A DNA stretch of 64,000 bases from Xanthomonas arboricola pv. juglandis (GTDB taxonomy: Bacteria; Pseudomonadota; Gammaproteobacteria; Xanthomonadales; Xanthomonadaceae). The position numbers were made by a program, and so were the translations under genes. This document shows positions 11,349-34,619 of this stretch, piece by piece. Location of the stretch: assembly GCF_001013475.1 (NCBI RefSeq), contig NZ_JZEF01000003.1, positions 248,001 to 312,000 of the forward strand. The letters run 5' to 3'. The notes beneath the pieces were generated by a model that ran no database searches, was not told the DNA's origin, and saw only the letters and a list, made by a program, of their open reading frames with translations. Numbering within the stretch: position 1 is the stretch's first letter; each line of letters opens with the position of its first letter.

Positions 11349-11358
11349 TCTACTAAAG

Positions 11359-13474: not shown

Positions 13475-13655
13475 CGGTTTGCGTCCGTTCGAAGTGTCCC
13501 CATTTTCGCTCTACCGCTGAGGTATTCAAAGGTGCGGCGGGCTCCTTACTCTACCTTGCCCAGGCGACCCTGAGGCCACGTGGCACCTGTTGCTGATGTG
13601 TAAGGGCGGCATCTTCGGTTGCAGCAAAGGTCGTTCAAGTCGAGGGTTGAACCGC

Positions 13656-14033: not shown

Positions 14034-14091
14034 AGGCTGAATCGATGCAGTGCAGGCATGGAAAGAGCATGACGGAAGCCTTACGCCACGG

Positions 14092-14111
14092 GTAGACTCT
14101 ACGTGACACGT
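14092..14111. promoter_or_regulatory. Overlapping palindromes, candidate XRE operator
   Basis: GTAGACTCTAC (14092-14102) and ACGTGACACGT (14101-14111) are each perfect palindromes around one central base and overlap by two bases. They lie between the divergent XRE regulator and the exported-protein operon, where an autoregulatory operator would be expected. Confidence 0.5.
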
Positions 14112-14144
14112 AAGTTCGTCGCAACCCGACGCAAGGAGCAGGGC

Positions 14145-16992: not shown

Positions 16993-17080
16993 ATGCTTTT
17001 ACTACTGATCCGCGGTTTGATACGCCCAGGGTTTCCTAGACATCTCATGGCCATGGAAAATGGTCGATTCGGAGGTGTCT

Positions 17081-17353
17081 ATGAGCAGCAAGCGGTATAC
17101 GGATGAGTTCAAGATCGAGGCGGTCCGGCAAGTGACTGATCGTGGGTTCAAGGTGGCAGAAGTCGCCGAGCGGCTGGGTGTCACCACGCACAGCCTGTAC
17201 GCCTGGCTGCGCACGTTCGGCAAGCCTGGCGTAGTGCAGCGCGCCGAGGTGGACCAGAGCGCCGAGGTTCGGCGGCTAAAGGCAGAGTTGCGTCGAGTGA
17301 CCGAGGAGCGCGACATCCTAAAAAAGGCCGCCGCGTACTTTGCCAAGGGGTAA
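17081..17353 (+). CDS. IS-A transposase OrfA
   Basis: A 90-residue helix-turn-helix and leucine-zipper protein (MSSKRYTDEFKIEAVRQVTD, then VAEVAERLGVTTHSLYAWLR) typical of IS3-family OrfA. GGAGGT precedes the chosen ATG. The heptamer A_AAA_AAG near 17321-17327 sits in the correct frame for programmed -1 frameshifting, which would fuse OrfA to OrfB; the frame of OrfB is indeed -1 relative to OrfA. Confidence 0.9.
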   Translation: MSSKRYTDEFKIEAVRQVTDRGFKVAEVAERLGVTTHSLYAWLRTFGKPGVVQRAEVDQSAEVRRLKAELRRVTEERDILKKAAAYFAKG

Positions 17354-17370
17354 AGGCAAAGTACGCCTTC

Positions 17371-18243
17371 ATGCAAGCCCACTGCGGGGAATTCAGGGTG
17401 TGTGTGATGTGCCGGGTGTTGCGGGTCAACCGGGCGGGTTATTACGCCTGGTTACGCTCGCCCGACAGTGAGCGCGCCAAGGAAGATGATCGCTTGCTTG
17501 GACTAATCAAGCACCACTGGCTGGCCAGCGGCAGTGTTTATGGGCATCGCAAGATCACCACGGATCTGCGCGATCTAGGTGAGCGTTGTAGTCGCCATCG
17601 GGTGCATCGGCTGATGCGCACCGAGGGACTGCGTGCCCAGGTGGGCTATGGTCGCAAACCGCGCTTCCATGGAGGGATGCAGTGCAAGGCGGCTGCCAAC
17701 CTGCTTGACCGACAGTTCGACGTGACGGAGCCGGACACGGCCTGGGCGAGTGATTTCACCTTCATCCGCACGCATGAAGGCTGGATGTATTTGGCTGTTG
17801 TGATCGATCTGTTTTCCAGGCAGGTCGTCGGCTGGGCGATGCGCGATCGGGCCGACACCGAGTTGGTCGTGCAGGCCTTGTTGTCTGCGGTGTGGCGGCG
17901 CAAACCCAACGCTGGTTGCTTGGTTCATTCGGACCAAGGGTCTGTCTACACCAGCGATGACTGGCGCAGTTTCCTGGCGTCCCATGGCTTGGTGTGCAGC
18001 ATGAGTCGGCGTGGCAACTGCCACGACAACGCACCCGTGGAGAGCTTCTTCGGCCTGCTCAAACGCGAGCGGATCAGGCGGCGGACCTATCCCACCAAGG
18101 ACGCCGCTCGCGCCGAGGTATTCGACTACATCGAGATGTTCTACAACCCCAACCGCCGCCACGGTTCAACTGGCGACTTGTCCCCTGTAGAGTTTGAACG
18201 GCGCTACGCGCAACGAGGGTCTGACCCACCCCCTGAAAACTGA
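17371..18243 (+). CDS. IS-A transposase OrfB, 3' end replaced by IS-B
   Basis: The DDE integrase domain is complete: WASDFTFIRT, LVHSDQGSVY and NAPVESFFGLLKRE carry the Asp, Asp and Glu catalytic residues. The protein probably starts by -1 frameshifting from OrfA; the ATG at 17371 is internal to the fusion. IS-B inserts at 18222, so the last few residues (DPPPEN) and the stop codon come from IS-B. The catalytic core is intact, but only the right end 1.3 kb away is available for transposition. Confidence 0.85.
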   Translation: MQAHCGEFRVCVMCRVLRVNRAGYYAWLRSPDSERAKEDDRLLGLIKHHWLASGSVYGHRKITTDLRDLGERCSRHRVHRLMRTEGLRAQVGYGRKPRFHGGMQCKAAANLLDRQFDVTEPDTAWASDFTFIRTHEGWMYLAVVIDLFSRQVVGWAMRDRADTELVVQALLSAVWRRKPNAGCLVHSDQGSVYTSDDWRSFLASHGLVCSMSRRGNCHDNAPVESFFGLLKRERIRRRTYPTKDAARAEVFDYIEMFYNPNRRHGSTGDLSPVEFERRYAQRGSDPPPEN

Positions 18244-18302
18244 GCCACGGTAAAGTAGAGACTTCGGCAGCATGGGCCCCCGTAGCAACGAGGATTCAAG
18301 CG

Positions 18303-18569
18303 ATGAAGAAGTCACGATTTACCGAAGAGCAGGTGGCCTACGCGCTCAAGCAGGCCGAGCTGGGGATGGCGGTCGGGGAGATCTGCCGGAAGATGGGCAT
18401 AGCCGAGGCCACGTTCTACGTGTGGCGCAAGAAATACGGTGGGCTGGGCCCGTCCGAGCTCAAGCGCCTGCGGCTGCTGGAAGAGGAGAATCGCAAGCTC
18501 AAGCAACTGGTGGCCGACCTTAGCTTGGACAAGGCGATGCTGCAGGAGGTGGTCACAAAAAAGCTCTGA
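18303..18569 (+). CDS. IS-B transposase OrfA
   Basis: An 88-residue HTH protein (MKKSRFTEEQVAYALKQAEL, KMGIAEATFYVWRKKYGG) with a C-terminal leucine zipper (LRLLEEENRKLKQLVADLSL). Just before its stop codon the heptamer A_AAA_AAG occurs in frame (ACA AAA AAG CTC TGA), so a -1 frameshift would join it to OrfB without interruption. Confidence 0.92.
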   Translation: MKKSRFTEEQVAYALKQAELGMAVGEICRKMGIAEATFYVWRKKYGGLGPSELKRLRLLEEENRKLKQLVADLSLDKAMLQEVVTKKL

Positions 18570-18637
18570 GGCCTGCCCAGCGACGTTCCTGGGTAGGCAA
18601 GCTGCATGAGCGTTTTGGGGTCAGCCTGCGCCGCGCG

Positions 18638-19411
18638 TTGCAGATGATGTCGATGTCCCAGTCCAGCTACTCCTACAAGGCCAAGGCGCGGGACTGCAGC
18701 GCGGTGCGCATGCGAATGCGGGAGATCGCCTTGAGCCGTGTTCATTACGGGTGCGAGCGGGTTTTCGTAATGCTGCGCCGGGAAGGCTGGCGGGACAACC
18801 ACAAGCGCATCCATCGCATTTACAAGGAGGAAGGCCTGTCTTTAAGGCATTGTCGGCCTCGTCGCAGTCGCAGTGCACGCCGACGGCAACCGATCAAAGT
18901 GGCCACTGCGCCCAATACCCTGTGGGGCATGGACTTCGTCAGTGATGCGCTGTTCGATGGCCGTCGCTTCCGGTTGTTGCCGGTACTGGATCACTTCACG
19001 CATGAGTGCCTGGCCATCGTCGTAGACCAGTCCTTGCGGGCCGACGATGTGGCCGAGGCAGTGACCCGGTTGGCCGCTCAACGCGGCAAGCCGGAGGCGA
19101 TCAAGGTGGATAACGGCAGCGAGTTTGCCGGCAAGGTAATGGACCGCTGGGCGTATGAAAACGGCGTGGAGCTGGACTTCTCCCGCAGAGGGACACCGAC
19201 CGACAACGCGCTGGTGGAAAGCTTCAACGGGCGCCTGCGGCAGGAGTGCCTGAATGAGCACTGGTTCTTGTCACTGGCCGACGCGCGGAGCAAAATCGAA
19301 GCGTGGCGGCGCTTCTATAACGAGGAGCGACCCCACAGTGCACTGGCATGGAAAACCCCTGAGGAATTCGCCCGAAATTGCGGGTCCCAAGCGAATTCCC
19401 AGGCGCCGTAG
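18638..19411 (+). CDS. IS-B transposase OrfB
   Basis: A DDE integrase-core transposase with WGMDFVSDALFDG, IKVDNGSEFAGK and NALVESFNGRLRQECLNEHW as the Asp, Asp and Glu motifs. The open frame continues upstream of the ATG to the frameshift site at the end of OrfA (reading ALRPAQRRSWVGKLHERFG), so the natural product is the OrfAB fusion. Length and motifs appear intact, so this copy may be active. Confidence 0.92.
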   Translation: MQMMSMSQSSYSYKAKARDCSAVRMRMREIALSRVHYGCERVFVMLRREGWRDNHKRIHRIYKEEGLSLRHCRPRRSRSARRRQPIKVATAPNTLWGMDFVSDALFDGRRFRLLPVLDHFTHECLAIVVDQSLRADDVAEAVTRLAAQRGKPEAIKVDNGSEFAGKVMDRWAYENGVELDFSRRGTPTDNALVESFNGRLRQECLNEHWFLSLADARSKIEAWRRFYNEERPHSALAWKTPEEFARNCGSQANSQAP

Positions 19412-19541: not shown

Positions 19542-20030
19542 TCAGTCTTCCAGATTCTTGCCGGCCCACTCCAAGAGCTTTGTGTAGCCGTCCTTGCCGC
19601 CTGCCGGGGCGAAGATTCCAGCCTCGTAGGTGGACTGGCGAGCCTTGAGGCCATCCAGATACACGCCAACCAGCTCTTTTGGGAAACCAGCCTTTTCCAG
19701 TGACTTGAAGCTCTCTTCGGAGATGGTGCCGGTCTCGGCAAACTCCTGAGTGAACACAGTCTGGTCGAGGCCAGCGGCCTTCAGTGCGTCTGCTGCAGCG
19801 GCTTCGTTGGCATCGCCGCCGTTTCCTTCGCCTTCCACTGTCGCGGCTTCTTTGGCCGCCTTCAGCCCAGCATTGCCGGCCGGGTCAGCCGGAGTTGCGG
19901 CAGCCGCGTAGGCTGCCTCCAGTTCTTCGACCGTTTTGTATTTGCCGCCATACAGGCGTTCGGTCTGCTGACCTTCGGTTCCGTCAGCGACGACCTGAGC
20001 CGGTTGGGTCTCGGTGGTCTGCTCGGTCAC
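19542..20030 (-). CDS. Capsid assembly scaffolding protein, truncated by IS-A
   Basis: A 162-residue, acidic, Ala/Glu-rich protein following the portal gene, as T7 gp9 does. Motifs include ERLYGGKYKTVEELEAAYA, found at the N-terminus of many podoviral scaffolds, and a late helical SFKSLEKAGFPKELVGVYLD. The stop codon TGA is contributed by the terminal TATCA of IS-A, so the true C-terminus, which binds capsid protein in T7-like scaffolds, is lost. It overlaps the preceding small gene by four bases (ATGA). Confidence 0.8.
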   Translation of the reverse strand: MTEQTTETQPAQVVADGTEGQQTERLYGGKYKTVEELEAAYAAAATPADPAGNAGLKAAKEAATVEGEGNGGDANEAAAADALKAAGLDQTVFTQEFAETGTISEESFKSLEKAGFPKELVGVYLDGLKARQSTYEAGIFAPAGGKDGYTKLLEWAGKNLED

Positions 20031-20197
20031 TTGGTCGTGCCCAGCGCGTTGTAGTGGGTAGTGCCGTCGCCGAATTCAGTGATCGTCACATCGCCCTTCT
20101 TGGTCACGCGCGGATAGGTCTTATCTGCCACGGCGTCAGCCCGTGGTGCTGGTGTGCCTGCCTCGTCGGCGGGGGTTGCGGCTTTTGCCATGGTCAT
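20027..20197 (-). CDS. Small phage protein between portal and scaffold
   Basis: A 56-residue protein (MTMAKAATPADEAGTPAPRA then KKGDVTITEFGDGTTHYNAL). The first ATG overlaps the portal stop (ATGA), and a second ATG lies two codons later. Short beta-strand-like conserved phage proteins of unknown role are common at this place in podovirus structural operons. Function unknown. Confidence 0.6.
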   Translation of the reverse strand: MTMAKAATPADEAGTPAPRADAVADKTYPRVTKKGDVTITEFGDGTTHYNALGTTK

Positions 20198-21759
20198 TCC
20201 TGGATTGGTGAGCCACCTGTCATCGCTGCGTTCACCAAGTTCGGTGCGGCGCGGACAGCGGCCTCGTTCATTGCGGAGGTCTGGTCGTTTTGCTGGACGG
20301 CTTCTGGGTCGAGCACAAGACCCTTTGTGGTGATGTCGGATGCGGCGCCCAGTCGGGACAGCCACTCGCCCCAGTCGATGCGGCGGCCAGCTTCTTGCTC
20401 ACCCATGACGCCCTTGGCGGTCTCGCCAAAGCGCACGAGCTTCTCGAAGTCGTGGCCGCGGCCTAGGGCTGCGACGCCTACGGTGATGCGTGGTTTGATG
20501 AGGCCTTCCGGCAGCTCCGGGATTGCCCCGTTCTGCTGCAGTCGGAAGAGGATGCGACGGATGAGTGGAACCATCAGCTCGGGGCCGAGCACCGAGTAGA
20601 GGCCGGCGCGGTTATCCTCAAGCACACGGGCGAGATACTGGATTTCCTCTCGGGTCACCCGGTCGCCGCTGCGCTGGATGGCAGTTCCGACGCCGAAGAC
20701 CAGCTCCAGGTTGCGGGCGGTGGTGTCGGCTTCGCTCTTGACGAAGGAGAGATCCTGGAACTTGTCCAGGGTCAAGGAGGAAATGTCGTTCTTGTCGCCG
20801 CGGATGACGGCGCCCGACTCAGCCTTGGTCAGCTGGTCCGGCTTCATCGCCGAGGTCGGCTTGAGCAACCAAAGGATTTTCGCGGCAGCTGCAGCCCCCT
20901 TCCGAAGCGCCTTTCGGAGCGCCTCAAGAGTCTCGAACTCACCTCGGTAGTCTTCGATCAGGCCGCGACCATAGTCTTCACTAGTGGGCCGAGGGATCGA
21001 TACTGGAATCCAAGGGGGAGCATCGATTGGGTAGCTGCCTTCGGTCCCGGCGATGATGACGCCTTCGACCTCCTGATAGCACAGCCAGTTCTCGTTGTTC
21101 TCGTCGCGGTATACGCGGGTGTAAAGCTCAGCGTCTTCGGCCAGCTTCTTCAACCGCTCGGTCTCGGAGACCTTGGCGAGTATCGATTCACGAGCCTCGG
21201 CTGGGAGCATCTGAATGGCGATCATGTCGAGGGTGACAATCTCCAGTACGTTGCCCAGGCCGTCGCGGTCAGCGATGTAGGAGGTCAACGGGTAGAGCTT
21301 GCCCGGCCCTTGGTCTGGCACGTACAGCAGCCAGTTGCCAGTTGCGGCGGAGTGCTTGAAGCCTTCGGCTAGGACCGAACGCAGCTGCGCACCCGCTTCG
21401 ATTTCATCCATGACGGCACGTTCGATTTCCGAAAGCGCCGTCTCAAGTTCTCCCTTCTGGATGCCTGCTTCCTGCATGAGCTTGTCCGATTCGGACAAGT
21501 CGGGCTTCAGGGTGAAGGGGGTGATGTTGGGAGGCAAAACTGCAAGTAAAAGTGCATTGGCGATTGCGTTGGCGCAGCGCGCGCCCGTGCCTTGTACGGG
21601 AGTGATGAAAGTCTGTGACTTTTGCTTCGGGTCAACGAACAGTGATGGGATGGTGACCTTGGTACACGCTTTGGCGCGGGTCTCGGCACTGTTTCGGTTG
21701 GGCTTCAGCTCGTCGTAGCGTTCCTTGGCGGATACGAGGGTCTTGCCGGCGTCAGCCAC
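20194..21759 (-). CDS. Head-tail connector (portal) protein, T7 gp8-like
   Basis: A 521-residue protein of the usual T7-type portal length. Recognisable features are the N-terminal SAKERYDELKPNRNSAETRA, the PVQGTGARCANAIANALLLA stretch, the membrane-fusion-like VLPPNITPFTLKP, RPTSEDYGRGLIEDYRGEFE, and the C-terminal GDRVTREEIQYLARVLEDNR followed by LGPELMVPLIRRI. The portal forms the dodecameric vertex through which DNA is packaged. The frame is intact. It is overlapped on both sides by small genes, consistent with a polycistronic late transcript. Confidence 0.9.
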   Translation of the reverse strand: MADAGKTLVSAKERYDELKPNRNSAETRAKACTKVTIPSLFVDPKQKSQTFITPVQGTGARCANAIANALLLAVLPPNITPFTLKPDLSESDKLMQEAGIQKGELETALSEIERAVMDEIEAGAQLRSVLAEGFKHSAATGNWLLYVPDQGPGKLYPLTSYIADRDGLGNVLEIVTLDMIAIQMLPAEARESILAKVSETERLKKLAEDAELYTRVYRDENNENWLCYQEVEGVIIAGTEGSYPIDAPPWIPVSIPRPTSEDYGRGLIEDYRGEFETLEALRKALRKGAAAAAKILWLLKPTSAMKPDQLTKAESGAVIRGDKNDISSLTLDKFQDLSFVKSEADTTARNLELVFGVGTAIQRSGDRVTREEIQYLARVLEDNRAGLYSVLGPELMVPLIRRILFRLQQNGAIPELPEGLIKPRITVGVAALGRGHDFEKLVRFGETAKGVMGEQEAGRRIDWGEWLSRLGAASDITTKGLVLDPEAVQQNDQTSAMNEAAVRAAPNLVNAAMTGGSPIQE

Positions 21760-22139: not shown

Positions 22140-22160
22140 GGGAAAACCGTGGGTTTTCCC
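22140..22160 (-). promoter_or_regulatory. Perfect hairpin in the late-gene leader
   Basis: GGGAAAACC-CAC-GGTTTTCCC forms a 9-bp stem that would begin two bases after the predicted start of the late transcript. It may protect the 5' end of the mRNA or act as a phage terminator for upstream transcription (CTTTCT follows). Confidence 0.55.
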
Positions 22161-22179
22161 TCTAGAGGCCCGACTAATT
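22161..22179 (-). promoter_or_regulatory. Candidate phage RNA polymerase promoter P2 (late genes)
   Basis: The minus strand reads AATTAGTCGGGCCTCTAGA, 17 of 19 bases identical to P1 upstream of the RNA polymerase gene. The layout AATTAG-N6-CTxTAG matches the T7/K11/SP6 promoter class. Predicted +1 is the G at 22162. It begins in the stop codon of the dNMP kinase gene, precisely between the metabolic and structural gene blocks. Confidence 0.65.
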
Positions 22180-22704
22180 CGCCAATCCCTGCGCAGCCGC
22201 TCGAAGCTGCGCCAACGTCCCGCAATTGACCACGGTGTGGTCCACCAGCCAGGACGGCAGGGGGCGTTCACTTGCATGGTCTGCGACTGAGGCGACGCCC
22301 GGTCGATCCACTACGACAACGATGCCGCCCAGCTCTCGCACCAGCATGGCTTCGTTCTCGAAACGCACGTCAGGAATGACGACACCAGCAGCGCCGCCAG
22401 CGCGGGCCTCCTCAACGCGACGTGCGGCGACTTTCAGCCAAAGGCTCTCGTCGATCATCTCTCGACCCCATTCGGTGCCGATGGTCTGCATGAGGCGGCG
22501 CGGGGAAGTGCCGCCCAGCCAGTCCAGCGGTGCTTCCTTCAGAGGGCCTGCGGTCAGTTCCTCCATACTCAGACCGGTGATATCCGACACAAAGCGGCGC
22601 AGCGGTTCGGCTAAGGCGATGCGGATGAAGCCTTGCTCGACGAGAAAGCCAGCGAGGGTGTCCTTGCCAGAGCCAGCTTTGCCTGAGATGCCGACGATCT
22701 TCAT
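22174..22704 (-). CDS. Deoxynucleoside monophosphate kinase, phage type
   Basis: The enzyme phosphorylates dNMPs to supply precursors for phage DNA synthesis. The 176-residue protein starts MKIVGISGKAGSGKDTLAGF, with the Walker A motif GKAGSGKD at residues 7-14. The following segments LMQTIGTEWGREMIDESLWL, VVIPDVRFENEAMLVRELGG and VVVDRPG match T4 gp1-like and podoviral dNMP kinases. The start is the ATG directly before the P-loop; upstream codons are non-homologous. Its stop codon TAG is part of promoter P2. Confidence 0.85.
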   Translation of the reverse strand: MKIVGISGKAGSGKDTLAGFLVEQGFIRIALAEPLRRFVSDITGLSMEELTAGPLKEAPLDWLGGTSPRRLMQTIGTEWGREMIDESLWLKVAARRVEEARAGGAAGVVIPDVRFENEAMLVRELGGIVVVVDRPGVASVADHASERPLPSWLVDHTVVNCGTLAQLRAAAQGLAN

Positions 22705-22736
22705 CGGACCACCTGCAGGGAACAGAGGTATCTGGC

Positions 22737-22910
22737 TCAAGAGACCCAACCCGCAATCAGCCAACACCAGCACATGGCGGGTGCGAGGATGTTGAACAGC
22801 TTTACTTTCACTTGCCGCCCGAGGCCAAGAGCGACGAAGGCCCAAAATACAGTCCAGCCCAGCGTGAAGTAGGCCACGCCGAACCACGCGACGATGGTTA
22901 GAAACAGCAT
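22737..22910 (-). CDS. Small membrane protein, holin candidate
   Basis: A 57-residue hydrophobic protein (MLFLTIVAWFGVAYFTLGWT, then AFVALGLGRQVKVKLFNILA) with two predicted membrane helices separated by a short basic loop. The ATG overlaps the exonuclease stop. Size and topology fit a class II-type holin, and spanin genes occur 1.4 kb upstream in the same operon, but no endolysin is visible nearby. Holin is therefore only a suggestion. Confidence 0.5.
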   Translation of the reverse strand: MLFLTIVAWFGVAYFTLGWTVFWAFVALGLGRQVKVKLFNILAPAMCWCWLIAGWVS

Positions 22911-23752
22911 TACGGTTCCCAAAGATTCACCTTGTTTGTTTTGTAGTTGAGGTCACCGTGGCGGAGGATTCGCGCCAGGCGTGCTTGGACGAGGGCGTCA
23001 TCTGCCGTCAGTCCCTTCTTTTTGTAGATAGCCACCACGGCCGCCCACAGGGCCGCCAGGTGCTCGTCTGGGGAGCCGTCGCGGTACGCCTCGTGCACGG
23101 GCATCAGGGCCTCGTCAGCGCGCTTGGCGCCGATGCCAGGGCACCCGGTGTAGTTGTCGGTGGTGTCGCCCATCAGGGCTTGCTTCATCCAGAACAGGTC
23201 GGCGTCGTAGCGGTCGATAGTCCGCACGCCGAGGTCTGGCTTGTTCGGGTTGTAGAGTCGACAAGGGATCGTCTGGAGATCCTTGTCGATAGACACAACG
23301 ATGCGCGGCCCGGGGCACCGCTTGGGACTGGGATGCGTCGCCAGGGTTCCGAGGATGTCGTCGCCTTCCAGCGAGTGCCGCTTGATAATCTTGTCGGCGT
23401 ACTCCTCGTGAATGAACTCGTCGAGGGCGTGCCACAGGACCGGCTTGGGCTTCTCGTGGCGGGCCTGCTTGTAGGTCGGCTCCACGTCCTTGCGGAAGTT
23501 ATGCTCGGGGCACGACAGCGGCAGCACGAAGTCGGCGGCGTCGAACTTCTCAACCAGCTCCGCGATGTACTCGGCCACTTCGACCTTCGCCTTTTCCGGC
23601 TGGTACACCTCCATGGTGTCGCCGTCGCCATCCCAGTCGATGGACTTGGTGTTCTTGAAGGCCATGTAGTACCGCAGCACGTCCGCGTCGATCAGCAGGA
23701 CGGGTCTCTGGCGCTTCTTCAAGGTGCCTTCTCGGGGTGCCGCTTGTGCCAC
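22910..23752 (-). CDS. 5'-3' exonuclease, T7 gp6-like (FEN family)
   Basis: A 280-residue nuclease of the flap-endonuclease superfamily. The N-terminal RPVLLIDADVLRYYMAFKNT carries the first metal-binding aspartates; KRHSLEGDDILGTLA and IVVSIDKDLQTIPC carry the second set; MGDTTDNYTGCPGIGAKRAD is the helix-three-turn-helix with conserved Asp residues. In T7, gp6 removes RNA primers and degrades host DNA, and it acts in recombination. All acidic motifs are present. The start overlaps the previous gene; a start at the second Met-rich region is less likely. Confidence 0.9.
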   Translation of the reverse strand: MAQAAPREGTLKKRQRPVLLIDADVLRYYMAFKNTKSIDWDGDGDTMEVYQPEKAKVEVAEYIAELVEKFDAADFVLPLSCPEHNFRKDVEPTYKQARHEKPKPVLWHALDEFIHEEYADKIIKRHSLEGDDILGTLATHPSPKRCPGPRIVVSIDKDLQTIPCRLYNPNKPDLGVRTIDRYDADLFWMKQALMGDTTDNYTGCPGIGAKRADEALMPVHEAYRDGSPDEHLAALWAAVVAIYKKKGLTADDALVQARLARILRHGDLNYKTNKVNLWEP

Positions 23753-25244: not shown

Positions 25245-27158
25245 TCAGTGGGTTTCTGCCCAGTTGTTGCCGATTTTGTATTCGCCATCGAGCTGACAGC
25301 GGAAGCCGAAGTAGTCACCTGCGGCGCGGATGGATGCCACCGCTGTCTGGCCGACGAATTCGGCACGCTGCTCGTCAACCTCAATCTGCCATTCGTCGTG
25401 GATGTTGCCGACGAACTCGTAGTTCACTCCCGGAACTAGGCCAGCTTTCTGGAGTGTCTGGTCGAGGATGTGTAGGCCCTTTTTCATAACCAAGGCACCG
25501 GCCGACTGCAGCAGCGTGTTGAGTGCAGCGTGGTCACTCCGGATATGCAGCTTTCGGCCGTCCAGGCCGATTAGGTAGCCCTTATCCTTGGCGCGTTTCT
25601 TGACGCCCTTGACGAGCTTTGCGAGCGCCGGAAGACCCTGTAGGAATTTTTCCTTAAGTACCTTGCCGTGCTTGCGCCCCTTGCCGATGATCGATCCGAT
25701 CTTCTCGTCGCCTGCCCCATAGAGGAAGGCGTAGATGAAGGTCTTTGCGTTGTCGCGGGAAGGGAGGCCAGCTGCATTTTGGTTGACTGCGTGGATGTCG
25801 CCTTCCAGCAAGACCCGGGCGTAGTCGCCACCATCGAATGCGGCCATGAAGTGCGCCAGACAGCGCAGCTCCAGGCCCGATGCGTCAGCGCCCACCAGCT
25901 TCTTGCCCTTCGGCACGGTGAACAGCTCGCGGCACTCATAGCCCCAGCCGCCCGCTTCGCCGAAGAGAATCCCCTCCTTGCCCTTTTGGACCTTGGGGAC
26001 CTGGGCCATGTTCGGCCCCGAGTGCGTCATGCGTCCGGTGACCGCAGCGTTCTGATTCACCCGGCCGTGGATGCGTCCATCCTTCTTAACCTGGGTGATC
26101 CAGGCTTCGGACTTCTTCTTCGACTTGCTCGGGGTACCGTCCTTCTTGAGCTTTGGCAGAGGCTCGGAGAGTTGCCCTGCGCGCTTCGCCACCGTTAGGT
26201 AGCGCAGCAACATGGGAATCTCGGGGTACTTGAGGTGCGCAAGGGTCTCTTCGTCGATCTTCGGGCGACCCTCAGGCGTAAATACCGTGGGCTTCCATCC
26301 GTGGAGTGCCTTTAGGCGCTTCGCGATGTGATCGCGAGAGCCTGCATTGAAAACATACGACTTGAACTTTTCGTGCGGCACGCCTTTGACGTAGCCGAGT
26401 TTTGCGTTGTTGACCTTCGGGACGAACATGCCGAGGCTCTCACGCCACGGCTGGAACACGCGGGTCAGCTCGTCAGTGAGTCTGGCCTTGGTGACCATGA
26501 ACTCGCGTTGCAGCTTGTCGGCCTTCTTTTGGTCGAACAGGAAGCCATAGGAAGTCTGGCGCTGGAGTATCGGTGCGATGCCATGCTCCAGGTCAATCGC
26601 TTCTTGTGACAGCCCCTTGGTCATCTGCAGGGCGAAGAGCTTCTGCGTGACGCGCACGTCCTGGTCGCAGTAGTCGTCCATCTCCTGGTTCCATGCTGCC
26701 CAGGGATCGAGTCCCCTGGACTTCATGACTTCGGAGTAGTCGCCTTTCCATTCGCCAAGGCGGTAGCCCCAGGCTTCCAGCGCGTGCCTTCCCACAAACT
26801 GGCCCGGCAGCTTTCCAGGCGACTTCTTGATGGCAGCGAAGTCGCGGTCGCGCAGGTCCGGCCATAGCAGAGTGGACAACAGCATCGTGTCCAGTGCCCG
26901 CTTAACCTTGAAGTCCGGGTACAGCTTGCGGATGGCGGGCACGTCGAAGTTGACGATGTTGTGGCCAACTACGGCATCCGCGCCCCGAAGCATCTCCAGT
27001 GCCTGCTCGATGGTCAGCTCTCCGTTTACGCGGTTGGCTGACAGCACTGCGCCCACGGGCACTCCCTCCGGATTTACTTCCTGGAGGGAGATGCAGTGGA
27101 TGGTGGTGAGTTCGTCGAGTAGGCCGTTGGTCTCAATGTCAAAGACGAGCCAGGCCAT
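25245..27158 (-). CDS. DNA polymerase, T7-like family A
   Basis: A 637-residue polymerase with 3'-5' exonuclease. The exo I motif FDIETNG holds Asp7 and Glu9. Polymerase motif A is GADASGLELRCLAHFMAAFD (about residue 423), motif B RDNAKTFIYAFLYGAGDEKI (about 468) and motif C NIHDEWQIEV (about 586). It is shorter than T7 gp5 (704 residues) but has every catalytic motif. In T7 the enzyme uses host thioredoxin as processivity factor; whether the thioredoxin-binding insertion exists here is not obvious. The ATG lies inside the nucleotidyltransferase-like gene (20-base overlap). Confidence 0.95.
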   Translation of the reverse strand: MAWLVFDIETNGLLDELTTIHCISLQEVNPEGVPVGAVLSANRVNGELTIEQALEMLRGADAVVGHNIVNFDVPAIRKLYPDFKVKRALDTMLLSTLLWPDLRDRDFAAIKKSPGKLPGQFVGRHALEAWGYRLGEWKGDYSEVMKSRGLDPWAAWNQEMDDYCDQDVRVTQKLFALQMTKGLSQEAIDLEHGIAPILQRQTSYGFLFDQKKADKLQREFMVTKARLTDELTRVFQPWRESLGMFVPKVNNAKLGYVKGVPHEKFKSYVFNAGSRDHIAKRLKALHGWKPTVFTPEGRPKIDEETLAHLKYPEIPMLLRYLTVAKRAGQLSEPLPKLKKDGTPSKSKKKSEAWITQVKKDGRIHGRVNQNAAVTGRMTHSGPNMAQVPKVQKGKEGILFGEAGGWGYECRELFTVPKGKKLVGADASGLELRCLAHFMAAFDGGDYARVLLEGDIHAVNQNAAGLPSRDNAKTFIYAFLYGAGDEKIGSIIGKGRKHGKVLKEKFLQGLPALAKLVKGVKKRAKDKGYLIGLDGRKLHIRSDHAALNTLLQSAGALVMKKGLHILDQTLQKAGLVPGVNYEFVGNIHDEWQIEVDEQRAEFVGQTAVASIRAAGDYFGFRCQLDGEYKIGNNWAETH

Positions 27159-28033: not shown

Positions 28034-29668
28034 TCAGTAGCCGCTTGGCGTGTCGTCGAAGCTCTCGTCATCGCCGTCCGCGTATGGGTCGGCGCACGGC
28101 ACGAGGCGGCCGGTCTGTTCGTCGTAGCGGAGGTAGATGCACTTGCCCGCGGCCTGGCCGGTGTAGCGGTCCTTGAGCACGCGGAGAGTCGTTGTGGTTC
28201 GGACGGAGATGTCTGCCGCCTGTTGATCGCGCTCCAGACCGAACATGAAGTGCGACCAGAAGCCAATGGCGCGACTGCCCTTGAACTGACGGATAGTCAC
28301 GCGCCCACCTTCCTCGTGCGGCGAACCCTTCTCGGGGGTCGTGAGGTGGGAGATGAAATAGATGCAGACGTTCAGCTCCATCGCCAACTTGGCGAGTGCA
28401 GCCATCACCTGTTCCAGCACTTTCTTCTCGTCGTCGGCGTCGGCTGCGAGTGCAGTGAGGTGGTCCAGGAAGATGTGCTTAACGCCGTCCGCGACGGCCA
28501 TATGGCGCATCTTGGAAGCGATTACTTCCCAGTCGGTGGTGCCAAAGTGGTCGTAAAGAACGACGTTGCCCGTGCTGTCCAGGATGTCGAACGCGTCTTC
28601 TAATTCCTGTTGCGTCCAGCCTGCATCAGGCACATGGAAGCGGCGCGAGGCGTATTTTCCGGCCAGGCGCTTCGCCGTCTCCGCGGGCGGCTGTTCCAGC
28701 TTGAGGACGCCGCACTTCTCGTTGCAGGTGGTCGCCGTAAATACGATGATTTCGTCGAACACATCGGACTTGCCCATGCCCGTACCGGCGCCCAGGCCGT
28801 AGATTTCGCCGTAGCGCCGGCCAAGGGTGTAGTCGGTCAATTCGGGCCAAGGCCAGGGCATCCCGATGACAACGGGAGCTAGCGCCTTCTCGCGCACGGA
28901 GCCGAAGGTCACGATGCCGTCTGGACGAACCGTCTGGGCTTCGTAGATGCACGAGACGATGGCCTCGCCATTGCCGGCCTGGAGCATCGCGTTGGGGTCT
29001 TTCAGCGGCAGCTGTGCGATTCGCGCCTTTCCCGGCGAAAGGATTCCAGCGACCTCCTGAGCGGCGGCCTGGCCTGGCTCATCCATGTCGAACATGATGA
29101 CCACTTCGTCAAACTTCTCGACCCACTCAAGCTCACGCTTGATGGCCTTCGCCGCGCCCTGTGCACCGTTTGGAACCGACACTACGGGCCACTTCAGGCC
29201 GAGCACTTGAGCGACGCTTAGGCAGTCCACTTCACCTTCGGTGATGACCAGGCGCCGCGTGGGCTGCCAAAGGTGCTGGCCGAACAGGCCTGCTTCCTTT
29301 GTGTCGCCAATGAAGGCGAATTTCTTATCTTTGAACCGTAGCTTCTGTGCGACGGTGCGCCCGTCGCGGCGATAGTTGGCGATCTGGCAGGTTTTGCCGT
29401 CCTTGTTCTTGCCTACCCAGTAGGAGAATTTTCGACAGGTTTCTTCCTGCAGACCGCGAGCGGCCAGAGCTGAGGCTTCGCCCTGGGCAAAGTCGTCGGA
29501 CATGCGGTGCCTTGATTGCGTGCGTGTGGCGTCGCCATCTGCCGGCTCGTAGTGGGAGCACCCAAAGCAGAAGCCGTGCCCGTCGTCGTAGCGCGCGAGG
29601 TTGTCGCGACTGCCACACTTAGGGCACGGCTCTTTAGCAACGAACTGAGACTCAGCGTCGGCTGACAC
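28034..29668 (-). CDS. Primase-helicase, T7 gp4-like
   Basis: A 544-residue bifunctional replisome protein. The N-terminal zinc ribbon CPKCGSRDNLARYDDGHGFC continuing FGCSHY supplies four cysteines; the TOPRIM primase core shows VITEGEVDCLSVAQ and VIMFDMDEPGQAAAQE; the RecA-like helicase shows Walker A GAGTGMGKS near residue 300, the Walker B-like KHIFLDHLTALAAD and the QFKGSRAIGFWSHF motif. All parts needed for primer synthesis and 5'-3' unwinding are present. The start is GTG and overlaps the preceding small gene. Confidence 0.95.
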   Translation of the reverse strand: MSADAESQFVAKEPCPKCGSRDNLARYDDGHGFCFGCSHYEPADGDATRTQSRHRMSDDFAQGEASALAARGLQEETCRKFSYWVGKNKDGKTCQIANYRRDGRTVAQKLRFKDKKFAFIGDTKEAGLFGQHLWQPTRRLVITEGEVDCLSVAQVLGLKWPVVSVPNGAQGAAKAIKRELEWVEKFDEVVIMFDMDEPGQAAAQEVAGILSPGKARIAQLPLKDPNAMLQAGNGEAIVSCIYEAQTVRPDGIVTFGSVREKALAPVVIGMPWPWPELTDYTLGRRYGEIYGLGAGTGMGKSDVFDEIIVFTATTCNEKCGVLKLEQPPAETAKRLAGKYASRRFHVPDAGWTQQELEDAFDILDSTGNVVLYDHFGTTDWEVIASKMRHMAVADGVKHIFLDHLTALAADADDEKKVLEQVMAALAKLAMELNVCIYFISHLTTPEKGSPHEEGGRVTIRQFKGSRAIGFWSHFMFGLERDQQAADISVRTTTTLRVLKDRYTGQAAGKCIYLRYDEQTGRLVPCADPYADGDDESFDDTPSGY

Positions 29669-30037: not shown

Positions 30038-30415
30038 TCAGTCGCACAGGAGCACCTGCAGCGACGTGTGCGGCTCTTCGCCGGGTTCGGCAAACCGCTT
30101 GATGGCGTAGAGGGATTCGATCCACTTGTCGTCCGGCCAAATGCCGGCGTGGGTGATGGCGTCAAGTGGCGCCTTGGCGTAGTTGTCGATGTCGCCTTTG
30201 GGCGTCACGAGCTTCGTGGACTTCGGCTTACGACAGACGAACTCCAGTGCTACATGCAGCTTCCCTTCCGGGATCGTTACGCCAGTGGTCTTGAGGTACG
30301 CGCCGGCTGCTTCCAGCCAGGTCTTGTAGGTCTTCAGGTGGTACGTGCCCCAGCGCGTTACGCGGGGGCGAGAAGCCGGAACGGGGTCTATTGGGAAAAT
30401 GAAAGAGGCGGCCAA
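30038..30415 (-). CDS. RusA-family Holliday junction resolvase
   Basis: A 125-residue protein with the RusA signature: FPIDPVPASRPRVTRWGTYH, LEFVCRKPKSTKLVTPKGDI, DNYAKAPLDAITHAGIWPDD and a late KWIESL. The conserved aspartates of the DIDNYAK and WPDDKW motifs bind metal. RusA cuts four-way junctions during phage recombination and packaging. A TTG start with AAAGGGG upstream gives the family length; no ATG fits. It follows the ssDNA-binding protein gene by 31 bp. Confidence 0.88.
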   Translation of the reverse strand: MAASFIFPIDPVPASRPRVTRWGTYHLKTYKTWLEAAGAYLKTTGVTIPEGKLHVALEFVCRKPKSTKLVTPKGDIDNYAKAPLDAITHAGIWPDDKWIESLYAIKRFAEPGEEPHTSLQVLLCD

Positions 30416-30446
30416 CGCCGCCCCTTTCGTGACCTTGGACGAGGGC

Positions 30447-31118
30447 TTAGTAGTCGCCGTCGTCGCCATCATCTCCGTCGCTGTCTTCGTCCGAATCGTC
30501 GGAGTCGTCGTCATCGCTCGGGCGGTCTGCGCCGTCAGCGATTTCGTCACCATCCTCCTCATCGAAGTCGTCGGCTGCACGGCTGGCGCCGCCGAACTCG
30601 ACCAACTTGATGATCTGGACGCCGACCATGCGCAGCGAAATGCCAAACTTCTTGTCCGCCGCCGCGAAGTAGGGCACGGCCTCGAAGCTCACCTTGAGAA
30701 TGCTGCCGCCCCCGATGTTCGGCGGATTCTTCAGCACTTCCTTCTTGGCGTTCACGATGGTCGGGACCATGGTGTAGACCTTGCCGGTCTTCTTCGCCTT
30801 GATCTTGTGCTTCATCTTGAAGTTGAAGGTCACCCGGCCGGTCTCGTCGCCCTCATCGTCCGTTTCCGAAGCGAAGAAGTCGGCCAGTGCAGCCTTCTTG
30901 TGTTTCGGATTCTCAGATTTGAACTGCTCGAAGGCTTCGTCGCGGATGCCGGTCAGCTTCTTGATGAACGCCTGGGTGTCGGCGTCTGACTCGTCCATCG
31001 CTAGCTTGGCGGAGAACTCGCCGTCCGCGTTGTACTTGGTGTCGGGGGCATTCAGTCGCGGCCAGATGGCCGTACCGGCCGGGGACACGTATCGCTTATT
31101 CGCTTTCTTCTGGGTCAT
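30447..31118 (-). CDS. ssDNA-binding protein, T7 gp2.5-like
   Basis: A 223-residue protein with an OB-fold-like body (YVSPAGTAIWPRLNAPDTKY, VTFNFKMKHKIKAKKTGKVY, GGGSILKVSFEAVPYF) and a strikingly acidic C-terminal tail composed of Asp, Glu, Ser and Gly (ending DDGDDGDY). The tail is the hallmark of gp2.5 and other SSBs and contacts the replisome proteins. It protects ssDNA at the replication fork. The ATG lies inside the preceding 49-residue gene. Confidence 0.9.
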   Translation of the reverse strand: MTQKKANKRYVSPAGTAIWPRLNAPDTKYNADGEFSAKLAMDESDADTQAFIKKLTGIRDEAFEQFKSENPKHKKAALADFFASETDDEGDETGRVTFNFKMKHKIKAKKTGKVYTMVPTIVNAKKEVLKNPPNIGGGSILKVSFEAVPYFAAADKKFGISLRMVGVQIIKLVEFGGASRAADDFDEEDGDEIADGADRPSDDDDSDDSDEDSDGDDGDDGDY

Positions 31119-31684: not shown

Positions 31685-31700
31685 ATCCCAAATATGGGAT
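31685..31700. promoter_or_regulatory. Operator-like palindrome B
   Basis: ATCCCAAATATGGGAT is a 16-bp palindrome with perfect 6-bp arms. It lies between the RNA polymerase stop and the next gene. The same arms occur in palindrome A upstream of the RNA polymerase gene. Confidence 0.6.
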
Positions 31701-31703
31701 GTA

Positions 31704-34124
31704 TCAGGCAAAGAAATAGCTGCTCTCAAGCACTGCGGAGAGGTCCAGGTCACCGAACGGGGGAATCTCTGGAAGATCAGCGGCGACCTCCACGGGTAGC
31801 TGTTCTGCCAGTTCGGTTCTGAAGTTGCCCAGTACGTCGCCCTCGTATTGCTCAATAAAGGCGTGACGCAGCGCGGCGGCGAGGGTGCCGGTGTTGCCGG
31901 CATGGGTTCCGTAGGAGTCGTGGATCATCGCGAAGCTGGTGATCCCGTTGTCCGACGCGAGACAGGTGGTCAGCATCAGGTGGCTCGCATCGCAGGAGTG
32001 AACGAAGTTGGGGGAGATCCCTAGACCCTGGCGACGGCGGTCAAGTTTGCTCCCGTCCATAGCCACGATTAATTCGACGCGCTTGCCGCCGATGTGGGTT
32101 GTGACGCGCTTGCCGAGGTCCTCCCTGTACTCCTGCAGGACCGGGAAGCCTGCCGGCGTGGTCCAGGCGATAGGGAGGTCGGAGGCCGATGCGACCTTCG
32201 ATGCTTCCTTCAGCCAGTCCATCGCTTGGCGCGCGGCCACCACGACTTCGCCAATGCAGTCCCAAAGAATGTCGCCGAGGTAAGCGGCCTGCTCGTTGGA
32301 GGGCGAGAGTCCCTCCTTTTTGGCGTTGGCCTGCACCTGGCCGCGCATGCCGGACTTGGTGACGCCGTAAGGAAGCGTCATGACTGGCTGTTTGACGATG
32401 CCACGTGTCAACAGGCCATCCCAGAACAAGGCGCAAGCGTTCCCTGCCTCGGCTTCTGCCCTGACACGCGCCGCAGCCACGTCCATCACTGCCGTGTAGA
32501 TGTCGGCCGGCTTGTCCTGCGGTAGAAGGTTCGTCGCAGAGCCGCCGATGGAGTCTCGGAGCATCGCCGAGAAGTTCTGCAAGCCGTTGCACGAGCCGTC
32601 GAGGGCGACCGGCAGGTGCGACACGTGCTCGTTGCCGTTAATGGAGTAGCCGAGCCACTCAAAGCAGGCGGCGAGGGCGCAGAACGGCGAGTCGGCTTTG
32701 GACCAAGCGCGCTGGCCGTCCAGCGGGCTGAGGGCCGAGTCTAGAATCATCTCCTCGTTCGCCTTGACCCACGCCAGGCGTTCCGAGAAGGCGACCTTAT
32801 CGACGCCGAAGCAGTTTGCGACGTGGATAGCCAGCCAGAACGCGCCGTCCTCGCCAAGCGGTACGCCTTCGGCCAGTGTCAACAGTGCTTTTGCCTGGTC
32901 GTCGCCTTGCGGAGTTAGGATCGATGGGATCGGGTAGACCCGTCCGCGGAAGTCCAAGTTGTGCGGAAAGTAGATCGCCTCCTCGTCTTTGAACTTCACC
33001 GCCAGAGCGATTTTCTGCGCTGCCGACAATCGGCGGGAGGTGCCGCGGGCGTTCTCTTCGTAGACCTCTGCGCGGGCGCGCTTCCACGCCTTGAACTCCT
33101 CCGCATGGTGCTCCTTGTAGAACTCGGGGTCGCTAACCAGCAGTGCCGGCTGCTCCGGCAATTCCACTAAGTCGCGGTCAGGCAGGTCAGCGAAGCCGCC
33201 GCCCATTGCCCAAGCGTCCTGCATGACTTCCAGGACTGGTTTGTTGATCTTCCACGGAGTGGACTGGATGAGGTTGACCGCCCGGTAGACATTGGGCATG
33301 TCTGCCTGCTCCAGCTCGCGCTTGTAGGCACGGTTGCGCGTGCGCACGAGGTCCGCTCTTCCGCCGATGTCGGTGAGATAGCCACCGTCGCGAGGCGTCG
33401 TCCAGTCCTTGGGCGGGACGAGCATGGGCAACCACACTGGCAGGAACATTGAGGCGCTCTCGTGGGCCTTGGCGAGCCACTCGCGGATCGCGGCGGTGCC
33501 CTGCAAGATCGCGACGGTTTGGTTCTTGCGGGGTCTGGTCAGGATGATTTCGGCCAGGCCAGATGCCTCAATGAAGAGGTCGATCAGCTTCATGCCGACC
33601 AGAGCCTCTTCGTCCGGCGTGAACACGAACATTTCGGTCTCGGTCTTGGCGAGGGCGTGGTTCATCACTCCGGTCGAGTGATGCGCAGAGGTGGATTTCT
33701 TCAGCTGTTGTTGGATTACCCGGTAGAGGCCCGCGTGGTTGTCCCGCAGCTTTTTGTAGTTCACGTCCTGGGCGAGGGCAGCGCCTACAGAGCGTGCTAC
33801 TGCTGTCAGCTTGGCCTGCTCGCCAGCCAGGGCATTCACGCACACCACCGCGGTCAGGTAAGCGCAACCCTCGGGGTCGAGATGCTCCAGCCACTTCACC
33901 GCCGTGTGTCTACGGCCGCCACCTCCTTGCTTAGCCTTCTCGACAAACTCACGGATGGCTTGGCCGGTGGCCGCGACCGCTTGCATGACCAGCTTCTTGC
34001 CGGGGCCGGTGTCAGCCTCGTCGGAATTGGCGCGGGCCTTCTCGTAACGGGCAATGCCGAGCGAAGTCGATTCGGATTCCAGCTGGAGCTGGCGTTCGTG
34101 GAGCGTTTGGGCGGTAGATTGCAT
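31704..34124 (-). CDS. Single-subunit DNA-dependent RNA polymerase, T7-like
   Basis: A complete 806-residue polymerase. Catalytic signatures are LDGSCNGLQNFSAMLRD (first catalytic Asp, about residue 507), RGIVKQPVMTLPYGVTKSGM (catalytic Lys and Tyr, about 577-585), GISPNFVHSCDASHLMLTTC and MIHDSYGTHAGN (second catalytic Asp, about 735), and the C-terminus ESSYFFA resembles the FAFA end of T7 RNAP. The N-terminus aligns to T7 RNAP from about its residue 30 (HERQLQLESESTSLGIARY). No frameshift or stop is seen. It would transcribe its own genome from promoters such as P1 and P2. No strong ribosome-binding site precedes the ATG. Confidence 0.97.
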   Translation of the reverse strand: MQSTAQTLHERQLQLESESTSLGIARYEKARANSDEADTGPGKKLVMQAVAATGQAIREFVEKAKQGGGGRRHTAVKWLEHLDPEGCAYLTAVVCVNALAGEQAKLTAVARSVGAALAQDVNYKKLRDNHAGLYRVIQQQLKKSTSAHHSTGVMNHALAKTETEMFVFTPDEEALVGMKLIDLFIEASGLAEIILTRPRKNQTVAILQGTAAIREWLAKAHESASMFLPVWLPMLVPPKDWTTPRDGGYLTDIGGRADLVRTRNRAYKRELEQADMPNVYRAVNLIQSTPWKINKPVLEVMQDAWAMGGGFADLPDRDLVELPEQPALLVSDPEFYKEHHAEEFKAWKRARAEVYEENARGTSRRLSAAQKIALAVKFKDEEAIYFPHNLDFRGRVYPIPSILTPQGDDQAKALLTLAEGVPLGEDGAFWLAIHVANCFGVDKVAFSERLAWVKANEEMILDSALSPLDGQRAWSKADSPFCALAACFEWLGYSINGNEHVSHLPVALDGSCNGLQNFSAMLRDSIGGSATNLLPQDKPADIYTAVMDVAAARVRAEAEAGNACALFWDGLLTRGIVKQPVMTLPYGVTKSGMRGQVQANAKKEGLSPSNEQAAYLGDILWDCIGEVVVAARQAMDWLKEASKVASASDLPIAWTTPAGFPVLQEYREDLGKRVTTHIGGKRVELIVAMDGSKLDRRRQGLGISPNFVHSCDASHLMLTTCLASDNGITSFAMIHDSYGTHAGNTGTLAAALRHAFIEQYEGDVLGNFRTELAEQLPVEVAADLPEIPPFGDLDLSAVLESSYFFA

Positions 34125-34165: not shown

Positions 34166-34192
34166 AAAAACGCCCCCGCCCGAAGGCGGAGG
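34166..34192 (-). terminator. Intrinsic terminator directly upstream of the RNA polymerase gene
   Basis: Read on the minus strand, CCTCCGCC-TTCG-GGCGGGGG (one G-A mismatch) is followed by CGTTTTT. The hairpin and T-tract are of textbook quality. It lies between promoter P1/palindrome A and the RNA polymerase ATG, so host-RNAP transcripts entering from the right should stop before the gene. Confidence 0.75.
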
Positions 34193-34302: not shown

Positions 34303-34318
34303 ATCCCATATCTGGGAT
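34303..34318. promoter_or_regulatory. Operator-like palindrome A
   Basis: ATCCCATATCTGGGAT has the same 6-bp arms as palindrome B. Immediately after it, on the minus strand, TAAGAT could serve as a -10 hexamer of a host promoter, although no good -35 is seen. A protein bound here would occlude transcription toward the RNA polymerase gene. Confidence 0.6.
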
Positions 34319-34375: not shown

Positions 34376-34394
34376 TCTATAGCCCCGACTAATT
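34376..34394 (-). promoter_or_regulatory. Candidate phage RNA polymerase promoter P1
   Basis: The minus strand reads AATTAGTCGGGGCTATAGA. The framework AATTAG-N6-CTATAG has exactly the spacing of the known K11 and SP6 promoters (established knowledge), with a different N6 recognition segment TCGGGG. It is 17/19 identical to P2. Predicted +1 is the G at 34377, about 250 bp upstream of the RNA polymerase ATG. Confidence 0.7.
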
Positions 34395-34400
34395 GGTCGC

Positions 34401-34449
34401 GTCACCTGTGACGCCACGGATGTCACCTTTACGTCACCCGCGGCGTCAC
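34401..34449. repeat. Direct GTCAC(C) repeats beside attR
   Basis: Four copies of GTCAC, three of them GTCACC, start at 34401, 34422, 34433 and 34445 in the 100 bp next to the tRNA-His fragment. Such short direct repeats beside an attachment core are typical arm-type sites of tyrosine integrases; this role is inferred. Confidence 0.45.
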
Positions 34450-34487: not shown

Positions 34488-34535
34488 GGATTGTGATTCC
34501 AGATGTCGGGGGTTCGAGTCCCCTCAGCCACCCCA
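34488..34535 (+). pseudogene. 3' half of tRNA-His(GTG): probable attR
   Basis: The sequence from the anticodon loop (TTGTGAT) through the T-arm to CAGCCAC-C-CCA is the 3' part of tRNA-His, including the diagnostic C73 discriminator. The matching 5' half (a GTGGCTG acceptor and D-arm) is absent; unrelated phage DNA precedes it. This is what integration into a tRNA-His gene leaves on the distal side. Confidence 0.75.
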
Positions 34536-34619
34536 CTGATTGCAGGAAAAGTTGGACCCGATGCATCGCGGGGTGTTGCAACGACGCAAAAACGCGCATA
34601 CAATGTGCGACCAGTTTCA

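Follow-up and report, generated by a model that had tools for sequence, protein, structure and literature searches.

Predicted cognate promoters of a T7-like prophage RNA polymerase in Xanthomonas arboricola pv. juglandis, one of them within the codons of the specificity loop

The 64,000-nucleotide stretch of Xanthomonas arboricola pv. juglandis DNA analysed here (the window; contig NZ_JZEF01000003.1, positions 248,001 to 312,000) carries a T7-like prophage, which adjoins a 3' tRNA-His fragment and encodes a T7-type single-subunit RNA polymerase (RNAP). Three related 19-nucleotide sites are found in it: P1 in front of the RNAP gene, P3 inside the RNAP coding sequence at the promoter-specificity loop, and P2 upstream of a small open reading frame (ORF) and the portal gene (Table 1). 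Because the loop and the sites change together among related prophages, we consider it very likely that all three are cognate promoters of the prophage's own RNAP; probable roles and regulation are proposed below.

The polymerase and its three promoter-like sites

The RNAP gene encodes 806 residues without an internal stop. It matches PF00940 (E 1.4e-117) and is the sole match to this profile in the genome. In an alignment with T7 RNAP, residues D537, R627, K631, Y639 and D812 are all kept, and segments corresponding to the specificity loop, the AT-rich recognition loop and the intercalating hairpin are present. An AlphaFold2 model built from 57 sequences has a predicted local distance difference test (pLDDT) score of 92.3, and its best Foldseek matches are T7 RNAP; this model was used rather than one built from 5 sequences (pLDDT 49). 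Hairpin strands are located at residues 671-678/681-688 and 191-199/202-209.

An earlier note, made from the letters of the window, had proposed P1 as the promoter of this polymerase. The 19-mer stands on the minus strand exactly at 34376-34394, and its predicted +1 (34377) is 253 bp from the RNAP ATG (34124), which bears out the distance of about 250 bp before an intact gene. The AATTAG-N6-CTATAG spacing, ascribed in the note to both K11 and SP6 promoters, holds for K11, whose phi1.05 record reads AATTAGGGCACACTATAG, and misses SP6 by one letter, as the SP6 promoter starts with ATTTAG. The recognition hexamer TCGGGG does differ, as the note had said, from both K11 (GGCACA) and SP6 (GTGACA) at -11 to -6, and assignment of P1 to the K11/SP6 specificity class is rejected on these letters.

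The three sites show the layout of T7-type promoters at the sequence level, with an asymmetric element, an AT-rich box at -17, recognition bases at -12 to -5 and a +1 purine, and several copies (n = 3) stand ahead of middle and late genes as in T7-type phages. Read in the T7 fashion, the AT-rich box would span -17 to -13, the loop would read -12 to -6, melting would occur at roughly -4 to -1, and transcripts would start at the +1 G.

At up to 3 mismatches, P1-like sites occur three times in the 64 kb (34376, 22161 and 32056), all on the minus strand, with P2 differing from the P1 19-mer at 2 positions and P3 at 3. None of 100 dinucleotide shuffles of the window contains any match at this threshold. 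A slightly degenerate pattern, AATTAGTCGGGSCTMTAGA, finds only P1, P2 and P3 in the 5.08-Mb genome at up to 3 mismatches; its backwards control finds 6 sites genome-wide at the same threshold, so a lone weak match is no proof. Motif scores of P1, P2 and P3 range from 21.7 to 29.9, and the next best in the prophage records scanned is 13.9. A further promoter-like site in the late region was rejected, as none in these records exceeded 13.9. A chance resemblance, with the host sigma-70 polymerase doing all transcription, might appeal to the AT-rich hexamers that occur by chance and to the 6 control matches. Given the empty shuffles and the conservation and coordinated switching in relatives, such a chance origin is scarcely credible, and it is already contradicted by the G339 and G347 switches and the P1/P3 agreement described below.

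The RNAP was found in 5 of 395 genomes of the family, the window's own counted. Seven IMG/VR records (G001-G007) carry RNAPs 96-99% identical to that of the window. Four of them reach P1, with an exact copy in G002, G006 and G007 and one mismatch in G003; the contigs of G001, G004 and G005 end at the RNAP and hence contain no P1 region. P2 is identical in six of the seven; the seventh, G002, ends inside the site by BLAST. In G003, the sequence 5' of P2 differs from the window, and P2 and the hairpin that follows it are nonetheless kept. P2 is also identical in G042, G043 and G044, the last of which is nearly identical to the window. In G042 (RNAP 87.6% identical; DNA 77-84% identical over four aligned pieces), P1 is present and differs at one base. 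Absence of the motif upstream of orthologous polymerase genes, which the note had named as evidence against the promoter, is thus not seen in the four near-identical records that reach the region or in G042, whereas G339, G347, G066 and others carry a different motif there, which matches the other sites of the same phage.

Coordinated changes of the loop and the sites

Superimposing relatives on the window reveals matched switches. G339 (RNAP 87.1% identical) has TAATAACCCTGCCTATAGA at P1, AATTAACCCTGGCTATTGA at P3 and AATTAACCCTGCCTCTAGA at P2, so that CCCTG stands in place of TCG[GT]G at all three sites, whereas G042 retains TCG[GT]G. Compared with the window, the loop of G339 differs at 8 of 23 residues and the rest of the protein at 96 of 783 (Fisher p 0.0055); in G042 the values are 1 of 23 and 99 of 783 (Fisher p 0.34). 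At the positions aligned to T7 residues 746, 748, 756 and 758, the residues are R, T, R and E in the window, T, D, R and Q in G339, and R, D, R and Q in T3. The T3 promoter record shows CCCT at the same places as G339. On the basis of these T3-like residues and of the shared CCCT, T3-like reading seems to have arisen anew in G339. In the selection experiment reported for T7 RNAP on the T3 promoter, all surviving clones described carried N748D together with changes at 219 or 222 (PMC4633624). G339 likewise has D at 748 and CCCT promoters; it differs from those evolved enzymes in that the switch is natural and that three promoters and the loop have changed.

In G347 (RNAP 70% identical), CAGTGG cores are present at P1 and P3. 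Some 11.3 kb downstream there are two sites in tandem, of which one has this core and the other is a variant. The smallest switch is seen between L106 and L108 (89% identical). Their loops differ only at the 748 and 756 places (N/R and K/E; 2 of 23 residues), and their sites differ at -10 (C/G) in P1, in P3, where the codon change is synonymous, and in a third site 1.87 kb 3' of the loop; P1 shows one extra difference, at -3.

Across 17 loci, P1 and P3 of the same phage agree with a frequency of 1.00 at -16, -13, -11, -10, -9, -4 and +1, and between phages the agreement at -11, -10 and -9 is 0.23, 0.22 and 0.34. Beyond about -17 to +3, the within and between figures are nearly equal, save for stray positions such as +21. 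The cores (-12 to -6) share on average 6.1 of 7 bases within a phage and 2.6 of 7 between phages (15 loci). The 17 agreement loci, like the 25 recoding loci below, were picked after candidates had been seen and include near relatives. Our findings support the earlier note's claim of a cognate promoter with a new recognition sequence, as far as coordinated change among relatives can indicate it.

In order to relate residues to bases, we compiled by hand a 20-row table, including T7, T3, K11 and LUZ100, in which related rows are not independent. An acidic residue at 748 goes with C at -11 in 5/5 rows, K748 with G at -11 in 4/4, and Q758 with T at -8 in 4/4; R at 756 does not determine the base at -9. 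Promoters of the known phages in the table were taken from sequence records, and SP6 (R at 748) is therefore not among the rows. The regularities of 748 with -11 and of Q758 with T-8 are consistent with T7 biochemistry. One distant lineage, L126, shows a loop site AATTAACCCTGAG with D, R and Q at 748, 756 and 758 and CCCT; its contig lacks the upstream region.

The repeated sites might instead belong to another phage protein, such as a repressor, an integrase or a replication initiator, that varies by lineage. Multi-site binding is known for some phage proteins, and P1 is surrounded by GTGACG repeats, palindromes and the attachment-site core. We regard this as highly improbable, since the sequence in common lacks symmetry, extends from -17 to about +3 and is oriented downstream in every case, and since it is the residues of the polymerase loop that track the bases. 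With the sites read as promoters, a change of the loop in a lineage would be accompanied by a change of its promoters. The clade then forms a natural series of near-identical polymerases in which slight changes of the loop are matched at several promoters, and would supply ready-made, testable polymerase-promoter pairs for orthogonal expression.

A site embedded in the loop codons and its distribution in the clade

P3 falls within the codons for the second strand of the loop hairpin, so the same DNA codes for the reader and copies the sequence that is read. Such an embedded promoter would be an overlapping code, its bases both specifying the reading surface and being read by it. In the window, no stretch of the RNAP coding sequence matches the upstream region better than P3, and synonymous recoding reproduces the match with p = 0.00065. 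When the loop DNA of the first 6 lineages was scanned, the upstream site, 2.2-2.4 kb off and at the same offset, was best or tied in 6/6. No loop/upstream match was among the top six for T7, T3, SP6, K11, LUZ100, S2B, jiawei, L034 or L011; for T7, T3, SP6 and K11 the scan covered the RNAP neighbourhood. A loop promoter in T7, T3, SP6, K11 and LUZ100 is rejected, as the best matches there reach 8-11 of 18 and are at best tied elsewhere in the gene; the T7 and SP6 loop sites tie for first within the gene at 11/18.

The rank test needed no choice of loci and was applied to all 32 that have an RNAP identity of 55% or more and sufficient DNA upstream. The loop site is beaten by no more than 2 of about 2,400 coding-sequence windows in 16/32, with ties of up to 1% of windows. 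Among more distant loci (40-46%) with upstream DNA, 1/38 falls within the same limit (L136, 14/20), which may be a chance effect. L110 has a 19/20 loop/upstream match in a shifted register, +18 rather than +7, which was set after the best match had been seen. In six of the 32 loci (L120, L121, L139, L125, G519 and G666), P1 lies about 1 kb upstream, past an inserted gene. Of the others, L123 gives a weak result, and L116 and seven loci belonging to a single subclade are negative. By eye, the gene inserted between P1 and the RNAP in these loci, of up to about 1 kb, resembles a KilA-C antirepressor. The scan of viral contigs by alignment covered the best 80 of 375 relatives.

P1 and P2 might be promoters while P3 is a mere look-alike within coding sequence, for example if P1 was once copied from the polymerase gene, and is not transcribed from. 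P3 is indeed the weakest match in the window (3/19 mismatches), and the P3 cores of L123 and L116 are unlike P1. We consider this reading unlikely for three reasons. Synonymous recoding rarely regains the P3 match (p <=0.0026 in 23/25 loci), the codons TTA or ATA, which these genes seldom use, stand at the P3 AT-rich box in 24/25 loci (L110 excepted), and P3 tracks P1 through lineage-specific changes, including the synonymous one in L106/L108. Programmed diversification, in which P1 would serve as the template of the loop, was considered and set aside: the letters in common end near -17 and +3, and P2, which has its own leader, carries them as well.

Taking P3 as a promoter, we tentatively raise the idea, which we hold to be less probable than its opposite, that the loop DNA acts as a self-contained specificity cassette. 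One recombination or conversion event would move the reader and its target, and P1 and P2 would follow. This idea draws on the fact that the loop and a matching promoter share one short stretch, so that a single event shifts both. If it is true, the phage polymerase would escape the trap in which a change of the reader breaks all promoters at once, and the cassette would be a source of many mutually distinct polymerase-promoter pairs in one temperate-phage clade. To our knowledge, how promoter specificity changes without the loss of all promoters is an open question, studied mostly in the laboratory.

In the polymerase tree, a 37-row clade (support 100/98) contains every row labelled as having an embedded site, and the label requires 4 changes, compared with 16.4 in shuffles. 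One well-supported subclade of eight rows lacks the loop site (L111, L112, L114, L117, L127, L128, L129 and L162); L127 among them had no upstream DNA for the loop-site test. Upstream DNA was too short for the P1 test in L105, L107, L115, L126, L127 and 7 more distant loci, and in L105, L107, L115 and L126 the label was assigned from P3 only. L130 was dropped, as its match stops before the loop, and L001, L002, L004, L005 and L006 were omitted from the large tables as near-copies of the window. The tree is read most simply, though not solely, as a single gain with a single loss and two decayed rows. Judged from the sequences, the loop-embedded promoter looks ancestral to this clade of T7-like prophages.

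Several observations weigh against cognate promoters at all three sites. In the eight-row subclade, L111, L112, L114, L117, L128, L129 and L162 show no P3/P1 match, and no repeated promoter motif was found there. G274 has no P2 in the 36 kb scanned. The recoding result is weak in L123 (p = 0.04) and fails in L116 (p = 0.32), where P1 has CACGCA, P3 CAGTGA and a P2-like site CAGGGA; with three unlike cores, L116 (record G1043) is possibly a phage in mid-switch or a mosaic. Two of the 7 core bases are not shared by P1 and P3 in the window, L113, L104 and G066, and the window keeps R at T7-756 yet has G at -9, unlike T7 and T3. Each prophage has only three sites, compared with eight in LUZ100 (phi1-phi8), and no sigma-70-like site is found on the RNAP strand between the attachment site and the gene.

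Proposed regulation, known systems and prophage context

Based on the positions of the sites, we propose the following course of transcription. The first polymerase would come from some host transcription on entry or induction. At P1, the polymerase would amplify its own gene in an autogenous positive feedback. P3 would serve the middle (replication) genes, and P2 would serve the late structural and virion genes, with a stabilising 5' hairpin on the transcript. In the lysogen, a MarR-like regulator that acts at the palindromes, together with a terminator in front of the gene, probably keeps the polymerase off. A comparable control of the polymerase in the lysogenic off-state has been proposed in the report on phage LUZ100 (PMC10134795).

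P2 overlaps the stop codon of the kinase gene, and the hairpin of its leader resembles the T7 phi10 leader. P2-type sites stand 9.4-11.4 kb 3' of the loop in the window, G003, G339, G347 (two), L119, L123, G066, G519 and G666; they are seen in G007 and G042 too, and the L116 record holds a variant. Many other loci stop before this region. The genes after P2 are profile-annotated in the window (portal), and elsewhere 'late' is a matter of distance. A hairpin with other letters and the same layout follows most of these sites, for example GGGGAACCCGAAGGGTTCCCC in G347, and counterparts with a preserved stem are present in G339, G347 (two), L119 and L123.

Table 1. Features of the prophage and its surroundings in the window
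Feature	Position	Strand	Basis or remark
P1 promoter (predicted), AATTAGTCGGGGCTATAGA	34376..34394	-	5' of RNAP gene; predicted +1 = G at 34377
P3 promoter-like site, AATTAATCGTGGCTATGGA	32056..32074	-	within RNAP coding sequence, codons E684-D690, second strand of loop hairpin; predicted +1 = 32057
P2 late promoter (predicted), AATTAGTCGGGCCTCTAGA	22161..22179	-	overlaps kinase stop codon; 5' of small ORF and portal; predicted +1 = 22162
P2 transcript 5' leader hairpin, GGGAAAACCCACGGTTTTCCC, 9 bp stem	22140..22160	-	fold
T7-type single-subunit RNAP, 806 aa	31704..34124	-	profile match, AlphaFold2, Foldseek
Promoter-specificity loop hairpin, codons 671-690	32055..32114	-	alignment to T7 loop; model strands 671-678, 681-688
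Attachment-site core, tRNA-His 3' part	34488..34539	+	52 bp identical to intact tRNA-His region, contig C7
Five GTGACG-like repeats, candidate integrase arm sites	34399..34449		between attachment-site core and P1
Palindrome TCCCATATCTGGGA, operator candidate	34304..34317		between P1 and RNAP gene
Intrinsic-terminator-like hairpin	34173..34192	-	between P1 and RNAP start
Palindrome, second copy	31686..31699		directly 3' of RNAP stop
gp2.5-like single-stranded-DNA-binding protein	30447..31118	-	phrog_112
RusA-type resolvase	30038..30646	-	PF05866
Primase/helicase	28034..29668	-	phrog_239
DNA polymerase	25245..27158	-	phrog_17
Exonuclease	22910..23752	-	phrog_107
Deoxynucleoside monophosphate kinase	22174..22887	-	phrog_139
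Portal / head-tail connector	20194..21759	-	phrog_449
Capsid assembly (scaffold) protein, apparently truncated	19542..20030	-	partial profile match, beside insertion sequences

Candidate regulatory elements cluster around P1. The palindrome between P1 and the RNAP gene has a counterpart in G002, G003, G006 and G007 and one of another type in G339, TCCCTAGATAGGGA; no counterpart was found in G042. We notice palindromes of the form TCCCA-N4-TGGGA also in G007 at 70573, 6 kb before the regulator, and at 78252, where the integrase gene ends, and in C7 at 92045. The operator letters, too, seemingly vary by lineage. Terminator-like structures number 2 in the scanned stretch, compared with 1.0 in shuffles, which is weak evidence alone; such a hairpin precedes the RNAP gene in 23/32 clade loci and in 9/38 more distant loci. 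By eye, GTGACG-like repeats occur in many relatives, and GGTGCC-type repeats are seen instead in L118, L119 and L122-L124, so the integrase arm sites may switch as well. The regulator itself gives no Pfam (MarR) match and hits phrog_9665, a transcriptional regulator, with E 1.1e-6.

LUZ100, a T7-like phage with temperate features, provides an experimental precedent for a phage promoter in front of the RNAP gene, as transcription start site mapping places its phi1 directly 5' of that gene (PMC10134795). In the published description (PMC10134795; OP329100), LUZ100 resembles the prophage in being T7-like with temperate features, an integrase, a MarR-like regulator and phi1 ahead of the RNAP. In phi1, phi4 and phi6-phi8 an AATTA box stands some 17 bp ahead of the start; in phi2 and phi3 the box is GATTA. 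LUZ100 differs in its core (CCACACA, compared with GTCGGGG in the prophage), in its RNAP (40% identical), and in the placing of its promoters, with phi2 and phi3 beyond the RNAP gene and no promoter within the specificity loop.

The promoters of K11, T3, T7 and SP6 share with the prophage sites the AT-rich box at -17 and its spacing to a CTATAG-like melting region, and K11 shares AATTAG and CTATAG as well. The recorded sites of K11 (four), T3 (two) and T7 (one) keep C-7 A-6 C-5, as does SP6, whereas the prophage has G-7 [GC]-6 C-5. By its position, P3 corresponds to T7 phi1.1A, T3 phi1.05 and K11 phi1.05, which lie near the end of the RNAP gene and serve middle genes; those promoters follow the RNAP stop, whereas P3 lies within the loop codons. 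Among isolated phages of the collection, Caulobacter phage S2B and phage jiawei are the nearest relatives (43%). They have an integrase and, close to the RNAP, a small ORF as long as a regulator gene, and differ in showing no loop-embedded promoter among their top matches.

That a new T7-like phage should have promoter letters of its own is to be expected. A literature search, with subscription papers mostly beyond its reach, found no account of this prophage clade, of a loop-embedded promoter or of matched switches in a natural series. The accessible main text of a 2026 survey of mined phage RNA polymerases contains neither Xanthomonas nor prophages (PMC13029058).

The remainder of the prophage is best seen in G007, where genes for tail, internal virion and terminase proteins follow and lead to a MarR-like regulator (76600-77049), a tyrosine integrase (77060-78322) and an intact tRNA-His (78359-78435), with the attachment site at 34.7 kb. 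From this layout, the order in the circular phage would be regulator, integrase, attP, P1 and RNAP, which is also the order in LUZ100. The element thus has the tyrosine integrase and regulator of a temperate T7-like phage, located by attP and 5' of the RNAP in the circular form. The genome of the window has the integrase end on contig C7 (91877-97461; L183), as a 2.7-kb stretch with integrase and regulator beside an intact tRNA-His, and this contig ends within the prophage. Either a rearrangement or an assembly break has therefore split this prophage copy, which may be defective, with the polymerase and promoters intact. A search of the window's genome for one internal virion protein, made without a positive control, gave no match.

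Late genes past the scaffold gene are absent from the window. Two IS3-like elements, recognised by eye from their translations, occupy 17060-19411, where late genes would be expected, and the scaffold gene ends alongside them. A stretch of low G+C content lies beside the prophage at 11000-13500 (48% at 11-12 kb), with an HTH_3 gene next to it at 13656-14207 (-).
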